Shown in pieces: positions 2,681-12,593 of a DNA stretch of 32,525 nucleotides; position 1 is the stretch's first letter, and each line of letters starts with the position of its first letter. This DNA is from Chloroflexota bacterium (GTDB lineage: Bacteria; Chloroflexota; Anaerolineae; J102): the NCBI GenBank assembly GCA_013152585.1, contig JAADGC010000130.1, positions 1 through 32,525 on the forward strand, read 5' to 3'. The notes under the pieces were generated by a model, which saw only the letters and a program-made list of their open reading frames with translations, ran no database searches and was not told the origin of the DNA. Both the position numbers and the translations under genes were made by a program.

Positions 2681-3301
2681 ATGCTCACATTTTTACAACG
2701 CACGCTCAGCTATCGCGGCCGCGAAAAGGCCTGGCAACAAAAATTCAATCCGCTGGCCCCCAAAGCCGACGATATGGCCCCTGACTTTGCATTAGCGGAG
2801 GTGGGCAGCGAGCGCATGTGGCGCTTGTCCGATTTTCGCGGCCAAAAGCCCGTCGTGCTGATCTTCGGTAGTTTTACCTGAACGGTGTTTGCCACTGCGG
2901 CCGGGAGCCTGCAGAAAATCGTCGATCAGTATCAAGATCAGGTGCTGTTCATCAACATTTACATTCGCGAAGCCCATGCCCGCGATGCCTGGTGGCTGGG
3001 CGAAGGGGTCCTGGGCCGAATCGTACGCACACTTTTTCCCCGCGCGGCCTACGACGTGGACGACCCCCGCGATGCCACCGAACGCCATGATGTGGCCTCG
3101 CAATGCCGGCTGGCGCTGAATCTCAACATGCTCATGCTGGTGGACGACGAAGACGACTCGGTGAACAAGGCCTACGCCGCCCATCCCACCCGCTTCTACT
3201 TCATCGACAGCGATGGCCGGGTGATTTATGCCGGAGGTGTGGGCCCGTTTGGCTTGCGGCCCTGGGAATTGAAAAAGGCGATTGCGAATTACCTGGGCTG
3301 A
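2681..3301 (+). CDS. Deiodinase-like thioredoxin-fold selenoprotein (in-frame TGA)
   Basis: Two open segments in the same frame, separated by a single TGA at 2879-2881, together make one 206-residue protein of the iodothyronine deiodinase family if TGA is read as selenocysteine (residue 67). The active-site context is VVLIFGSFT-U-TVF, against NFGSCT-U-PPF in animal deiodinases. Downstream, INIYIREAHARDAW matches the deiodinase IYIEEAHxSDGW block with its Glu and His, and the C-terminal RFYFIDSDGRVIYAGGVGPF matches the block ending KGKSGPW. The homology continues uninterrupted across the TGA with no frameshift, which argues for recoding rather than two genes. The ATG at 2681 follows a weak GGAACGAG. 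In bacteria the role is unknown: a thiol/selenol redox enzyme or reductive dehalogenase is plausible. The alternative is a nonsense-mutated pseudogene. Confidence 0.85.
2879..2914 (+). promoter_or_regulatory. Candidate bacterial SECIS element
   Basis: After the TGA at 2879-2881, CTGCGG (2895-2900) can pair with CTGCAG (2909-2914) through six pairs including one G-U, closing an 8-base G-rich loop (2901-2908). The loop starts 20 bases after the TGA, within the spacing seen for bacterial SECIS elements that bind SelB. This is a hand-drawn fold; no energy was calculated. Confidence 0.45.
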
Positions 3302-11600: not shown

Positions 11601-11674
11601 TGCCGAGGGACAGACTTGAACTGTCGACTCCGCAATTTTCAGTCGCGTGCTCTACCAACTGAGCTACCTCGGCA
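11601..11674 (-). tRNA. tRNA-Phe (GAA)
   Basis: The cloverleaf has acceptor TGCCGAG/CTCGGCA, a D arm AGCTCAGTTGGTAGAGC, anticodon loop CTGAAAA (anticodon GAA) and T-arm GTTCAAGTC. The CCA end is not encoded. It decodes the Phe codons that the leader peptide of the next operon uses as its sensor. Confidence 0.95.
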
Positions 11675-11839
11675 TATGAATATGAAACTGGGGTCTGGCG
11701 AAAACGGAATCCGTCACTTATAGACGCATCTTCGGCCACAAATTGCATGAATGAGACGAATTATGAAAGGCTTTTACCTTCTTTTTTCGCGAATTTCGTG
11801 GCAAAACCAAAAAACGCCAGGGTCCAGTATGAAAGTGAA

Positions 11840-11862
11840 AGAGGGCCGGTGTAGCCCCGGCC
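11840..11862 (-). terminator. Possible terminator after tRNA-Gly
   Basis: GGCCGG (11844-11849) pairs with CCGGCC (11857-11862); on the minus strand the hairpin is followed by CTCTTTC. It could end part of the Leu-Ala-Gly transcript before tRNA-Phe. The rest of 11675-11870 shows no gene. Confidence 0.4.
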
Positions 11863-11869
11863 TTCTGAA

Positions 11870-11942
<73 letters not shown>

Positions 11943-11979
11943 AATACTGTTGCACTTGAACCTGATGCCGCTCACAGAG

Positions 11980-12052
<73 letters not shown>

Positions 12053-12074
12053 TTGTCGGGCATGCATGCTGTGA

Positions 12075-12159
12075 TGCCGACGAGAGGACTCGAACCTCCA
12101 CGACCTTGCGGTCAACAGATCCTAAGTCTGTCGCGTCTGCCAATTCCGCCACGTCGGCA
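12075..12159 (-). tRNA. tRNA-Leu (TAG)
   Basis: This 85-base class II tRNA has acceptor TGCCGAC/GTCGGCA, anticodon loop CTTAGGA (anticodon TAG), a long variable arm and T-arm GGTTCGAGTCC. It is the first tRNA of the minus-strand cluster, after rnpB. Confidence 0.95.
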
Positions 12160-12189
12160 AGGTGTCGGCATCCAACAGAACAAGCGAAA

Positions 12190-12586
12190 AAATGGGAGTA
12201 CTCCCGATTCTGTTTGAACCGCCATCTGTCTCACACTGCTGTGCAGCGTGGTGAAGTCTGGCTTGGCGGGTGTTACCCGGCATCACCGACGTTCACTGCG
12301 ACGAGACCGAACTAAATAGCCCGGCCCACTCGCCTTGCTCCCAGTTGCACGCTCGCCTAGCCGGCTGTATTGCTACACGCCGCTGGTGGGCTCTTACCCC
12401 ACCCTTTCAGCCCTTACCACCGTGGTGGCGGGTCTACTTTCTGTTGCGGTTGTAGTCATGGGCCATTTCTGGCGCCATGCCCTCACTTGCTGTTTCATGA
12501 GGCAACCTTGCCTCGAATTTCGAAGCTGGGAGTCGGGAAGTTCCTCTGCTCATCGAGATGATCAGCAGCGGCGGCGCTCCATTTTA
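12190..12586 (-). ncRNA. rnpB: RNase P RNA, class A
   Basis: This is the catalytic RNA that matures tRNA 5' ends. On the minus strand the conserved blocks appear in order: AGAGGAACTTCCCGACTCC (P4 5' region), GCAACAGAAAGTAGACCCGCC, GGTAAGGGCTGAAAGGGTGG, GGTAAGAGCCCACC, GGAGCAAGGC, and AAACAGAATCGGGAG near the 3' end (P4 3' strand). The layout is class A, as in E. coli M1 RNA. The 5' end is set by the promoter at 12594-12623. The 3' end is followed by a perfect palindrome GGGAGTACTCCC (12194-12205) and six Ts, which acts as terminator. Exact ends are uncertain by about ten bases. It lies directly upstream of four tRNA genes that are its substrates. Confidence 0.93.
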
Positions 12587-12593
12587 TCTGACT

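Follow-up and report, generated by a model that had tools for sequence, protein, structure and literature searches.

The window, a 32,525-nucleotide stretch from a Chloroflexota genome (3.8 Mb, 96% complete), carries on its forward strand a putative deiodinase-family selenoprotein gene at 2681 to 3301. The frame is open from the ATG at 2681 to 3298 except for one internal TGA at 2879 to 2881 (codon 67), and it comprises 206 codons plus a terminal TGA at 3299 to 3301, just as the preliminary description had it. A standard ORF finder cuts the gene in two (2615 to 2881 and 2885 to 3301), making it an example of the splitting which that description had ascribed to automatic gene calling.

Translated through the TGA, the protein matched Pfam family PF00837 (T4_deiodinase) over residues 28 to 201 (1.9e-22; 80.2 bits against a cut-off of 27). 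The 139-residue part after the TGA matched the same family by itself (1.1e-13), while the 66-residue part before it gave no Pfam match by itself but completes the PF00837 domain when joined; the domain therefore spans the TGA, and the earlier claim that both halves belong to one deiodinase family is borne out. In NCBIfam, residues 27 to 202 aligned with positions 176 to 341 of the 347-position model NF038285 (deiodinase family protein) at 1.3e-50; the score of 172.8 bits falls below the cut-off of 250 because the protein lacks the model's first half and corresponds only to its second. A profile of nine proteins from the window's clade, hereafter group A, found mouse Dio3 (4e-34) and Dio2 (2e-31) in the PDB, with the next-best match no better than 1.5e-7. 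Dio2 and Dio3 were also the two best PDB matches (TM 0.74 and 0.73) of an AlphaFold model computed with 24 aligned sequences (pLDDT 91), which has a Dio-like thioredoxin fold. Identity as a generic thioredoxin or peroxiredoxin was ruled out, since Dio2 and Dio3 were far better matches by both profile and fold. Judged from these profiles and the predicted model, the gene product is a single-domain deiodinase-type (thioredoxin-fold) protein of PF00837.

Codon 67 lies at the catalytic position, aligning with Sec of Dio2 and Dio3 and with Cys in relatives belonging to group B, as we term the other bacterial deiodinase-like proteins. The preliminary description had placed the TGA at the Sec of a GSxT-U motif, with Glu and His of a downstream EAH motif kept; indeed, FGSFT-U, Glu97, and His99 all align with their counterparts in Dio2 and Dio3. 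Group A members were found by searching several hundred further Chloroflexota genomes, and they are spread over many families and many genera of the phylum. In a congener, the protein is 83% identical to that of the window and the gene 79% identical, with TGA at the same codon. Overall, UGA occupied the codon 67 position in all 16 intact group A copies compared (the congener and 15 further genomes) and Cys in none, so that the suggested comparison of homologues returned U throughout intact group A and Cys in group B relatives. Between the window and the congener, dN/dS was 0.08 before the UGA and 0.12 after it, indicating purifying selection on both sides. Two copies are not intact: one (G672) has a broken frame, and another from the same family as the window (G007; L023:1480-2000, minus strand) has decayed, with the UGA and hairpin region deleted and an in-frame TAG downstream. 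The G007 genome still has selA.

A bacterial SECIS (bSECIS)-type hairpin, CUGCGGCCGGGAGCCUGCAG, was identified at 2895 to 2914 on the forward strand, 14 to 33 nt after the UGA, with seven pairs, one bulged U, and an apical loop CGGGA whose first G is 22 nt after the UGA. The longest run identical to the congener, 41 nt at 2876 to 2916, spans both the UGA and the hairpin, and synonymous changes were rarer within it (1 of 12 codons) than elsewhere in the gene (64 of 148; Fisher p 0.03). Against dinucleotide shuffles, the fold of the window hairpin was unremarkable (z near 0); this approach is uninformative here, and codons were therefore exchanged at random between synonymous sites of the same gene, which leaves protein and codon usage unchanged. 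Across 23 homologues, the 30-base stretch from +10 to +39 folded at lower energy than in the permutations, with a Stouffer z of -5.6, and the overlapping stretch from +1 to +30 gave -3.6, values that overstate significance somewhat because the homologues are not fully independent. Eight stretches further downstream ranged from -1.0 to +1.4, so that the excess of structure is limited to +1 to +39, and four later-found homologues outside the first test gave z -4.7 at the hairpin. Complementary changes were also seen in the stem, where pair 17-22 occurs as A-U, G-C, and C-G within one subgroup and pair 19-27 as G-C, A-U, and G-U within the subgroup of the window. By the synonymous test, the window hairpin on its own was marginal (p about 0.06); support for the predicted element comes from the family, where it is strong.

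The genome also encodes the machinery for Sec insertion. Both selB (361 bits) and selA (567 bits) were found, selB over its cut-off, together with selD and a tRNA-Sec scoring 63 bits with anticodon UCA (ARAGORN); selA, selB, selC, and selD, for which the preliminary description had recommended a search, are all present. Because selA is common in the class (over cut-off in 167 of 200 genomes sampled), Sec machinery is to be expected here and is by itself not specific evidence. The genome's own selD (L048:1501-2436) has an in-frame TGA within ..SCAGUASK.., and SelD is on this account probably a selenoprotein too. A Sec reading of the window gene is strongly supported by the combination of selA, selB, selD, and tRNA-Sec with the conserved UGA, the SECIS-type hairpin, and purifying selection downstream, and UGA codon 67 is almost certainly read as selenocysteine, which upholds the selenoenzyme claim at the center of the preliminary description.

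If the TGA were instead a true stop, the locus would be a pseudogene or would yield two peptides, with reinitiation at the GTG at 2885. In favor are the position of that GTG, shortly after the TGA, and the decayed G007 copy with its deletion over the UGA region and in-frame TAG; however, the UGA is kept over many genera, dN/dS is about 0.1 on both sides, the hairpin and a complete Sec machinery are present, and a 66-residue product would stop at the active site. Neither a lack of selB and selC nor relatives with an unrelated stop followed by downstream decay, which the preliminary description had named as contrary evidence, were encountered. A true stop is thus highly improbable, and a chance frame or pseudogene is ruled out by UGA conservation, dN/dS, and the hairpin statistics. 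Decoding of the UGA as Trp or Cys by some other tRNA has nothing specific in its favor and is more improbable still, given the tRNA-Sec (UCA) and SelB, the bacterial SECIS-type hairpin, and the alignment of the codon with Sec of Dio2 and Dio3 and with Cys of group B.

The catalytic network of Dio2 consists of Ser127, Thr129, Tyr157, Glu160, His162, and His182, with Trp167 (PMC11592359). From this network the window protein keeps Ser64, Thr66, Sec67, Tyr94, Glu97, His99, and Trp104; codons 94 to 105 (2960 to 2995, forward strand) encode Tyr94, Glu97, His99, and Trp104 as well as the start of a Dio-type insertion loop. The relay His (Dio2 His182) is missing, with Pro129 in its place, and the residues of the thyronine clamp are mostly missing as well: Dio2 Glu225 corresponds to Thr170 and Dio2 Lys241/Dio3 Arg275 to Val187, thyronine-binding Dio2 Arg226 being the sole clamp residue kept (Arg171). 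The protein thus retains the catalytic end but not the hormone-binding end, and thyroid hormone is an improbable native substrate by this residue comparison. Codon 142 (3104 to 3106, forward strand) encodes a Cys that is invariant in the clade and is a candidate partner for Sec67. Animal deiodinases have a distal Cys 69 to 76 residues after Sec (PMC9141512), the role of which is unsettled even in DIO1. The Sec67-Cys142 spacing is 75 residues, although Cys142 falls in a different alignment column from the animal distal Cys, as the insertion loops are of unequal length.

Compared with animal Dio2 and Dio3 (9h48, 4tr3), the window protein shares the fold, FGSxT-U, the Tyr/Glu/His/Trp network, the Dio-type insertion, and the region of the C-terminal GGxGP motif. 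It differs in having no evident N-terminal membrane anchor, in the replacement of the relay His and the clamp Glu and Lys/Arg, and in the column of the partner Cys; the SECIS of the animal genes lies in the 3'UTR, whereas the window gene has a bacterial hairpin next to the UGA.

A maximum-likelihood tree joined group A and the mouse deiodinases in one clade (support 100/96) apart from group B, while group A alone is more weakly supported (84/62). Containing only Chloroflexota sequences plus two mouse proteins, the tree does not show the direction of descent. Most of the insertion that follows the EAH motif is missing from group B, whose Sec forms include UPYC, UPI, and UPPF, while other members carry Cys, Asp, Ser, or Gly in place of Sec; group A is mostly UPPF or UPPY, and the window UTVF. 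Cys at U+3, as in the UxxC bacterial deiodinase-like proteins, was found in L063, L065, L067, L068, and L070, whereas the window has Phe70 there and the invariant Cys142 instead, and falls with the animal Dio clade. In four deiodinase-like proteins (L057, L058, L059, and L064), the Sec/Cys position is occupied by Ser, Asp, or Gly, so that they probably lack the redox residue. With regard to a phage or viral origin, no match was found among phage records or viral contigs, and plasmids gave distant relatives only. In related Chloroflexota, ResA/TlpA-like thioredoxins with an in-frame TGA (NFWATWUPHC) were observed in L034, L036, and L038 (about 1501-1737), and peroxiredoxin-like proteins with an in-frame TGA in L035 and L042 (FLUPYCRAQ and FMUPHCRAQ).

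In 2005, a Sargasso Sea survey described deiodinase-like proteins of bacteria, in Sec and Cys forms and with bacterial SECIS elements, and suggested a redox role for them (PMC1088965). The window gene therefore adds to an already known kind, a precedent that the preliminary description did not mention. More such selenoproteins came from GOS data (PMC2398784), reviews give the family motif as UxxC (PMC9312934, PMC13188914), and a Sec deiodinase homologue exists in Dictyostelium (PMC2375036). The window protein resembles these bacterial selenoproteins (PMC1088965, PMC2398784, PMC9312934, PMC13188914) in PF00837 membership, Sec at GSxT-U, and a bacterial SECIS-type hairpin. No function has been assigned to them since 2005, and a 2026 review describes the functions of such selenoproteins as largely unknown (PMC13188914). 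A partial literature search found no published description of the Chloroflexota clade. Group A is the bacterial group nearest the animal deiodinases in the sample examined and, being also small and without an evident membrane anchor, offers a convenient test case; it bears on whether deiodinase chemistry arose from a peroxide-handling or a dehalogenating ancestor.

We consider it fairly probable that the gene encodes a cytosolic deiodinase-type selenoenzyme, with its UGA decoded via the hairpin, that acts in thiol-dependent redox chemistry (favored) or in dehalogenation, on a substrate that is probably not thyroid hormone. The one indication of a cytosolic location is the lack of an evident membrane segment. 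In the proposed mechanism, SelB and tRNA-Sec of the genome would decode codon 67 as Sec through the hairpin downstream, and the Sec67 selenolate would sit in a pocket of Ser64, Thr66, Tyr94, Glu97, His99, and Trp104. It would attack an electrophile, which may be a peroxide or other oxidant (favored) or the halogen of a small organohalogen, and the resulting selenenic or Se-X form would be re-reduced by thiol, perhaps by Cys142 and then by thioredoxin or a low-molecular-weight thiol.

A peroxiredoxin-like, thiol-dependent redox role appears preferable to dehalogenation. The re-reduction cycle of the deiodinases themselves has been described as peroxiredoxin-like (PMC11592359), and the invariant Cys142 of group A would suit such a role. 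On a Mycolicibacterium vanbaalenii plasmid (L105:2339-4309), a Cys-containing deiodinase-like gene of group B overlaps a gene of the AhpD/CMD family, and a glutaredoxin gene comes next, an arrangement that is a weak pointer in the same direction.

The alternative is that the protein reductively dehalogenates small or aromatic organohalogens, as a prokaryotic counterpart of the animal deiodinases in which Sec67 abstracts halogen as formal X+. The nearest relatives of known activity are the animal deiodinases (100/96), the protein retains a Dio-type insertion loop together with the Ser/Thr/Tyr/Glu/His/Trp network, and the clade has been found solely in Sec form, as have the animal enzymes. However, the same Sec chemistry serves peroxidases too, the exchanges to Pro129, Thr170, and Val187 remove residues of the Dio relay and clamp, and no conserved dehalogenation-related neighbor was found in the congener and other relatives; we regard this alternative as possible but distinctly less likely than the redox enzyme. 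Rather unlikely is the fuller proposal that the Chloroflexota clade is a separate and so far all-Sec lineage, sister to or source of the animal deiodinases, which shares the insertion loop and catalytic network of the latter and reductively dehalogenates a natural organohalogen.

Lastly, the preliminary description had linked the gene to an adjacent hydrolase, and joint action with this alpha/beta hydrolase (1656 to 2582) is very unlikely. The two genes lie on the same strand, 98 nt apart, and the congener contig also has the hydrolase, along with a PIG-L protein; there, however, several unrelated ORFs intervene before the deiodinase gene. Ten other relatives have different neighbors, among them sulfatase, MacB/histidine kinase, AFOR, CDGSH, GrdB/rhodanese, RtcB, M20 peptidase, methyltransferase, and GMC oxidoreductase. 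No conserved partner gene was present among the congener and these ten, and no neighbor names a substrate; the comparison thus speaks against the partnership, and the suggested link is not supported. The genes intervening in the congener (L002:2100-4750) include an apparent sugar-ABC/SIS group with a broken substrate-binding gene, possibly the result of an insertion or of faulty assembly. In G310 (L087:2215-4640), the UGA-containing deiodinase gene lies between a gene of the glycine reductase selenoprotein B family upstream and one for rhodanese downstream. Elsewhere in the window, the minus strand at 11601 to 12587 carries an RNase P RNA and, nearby, four tRNA genes, all of ordinary appearance.
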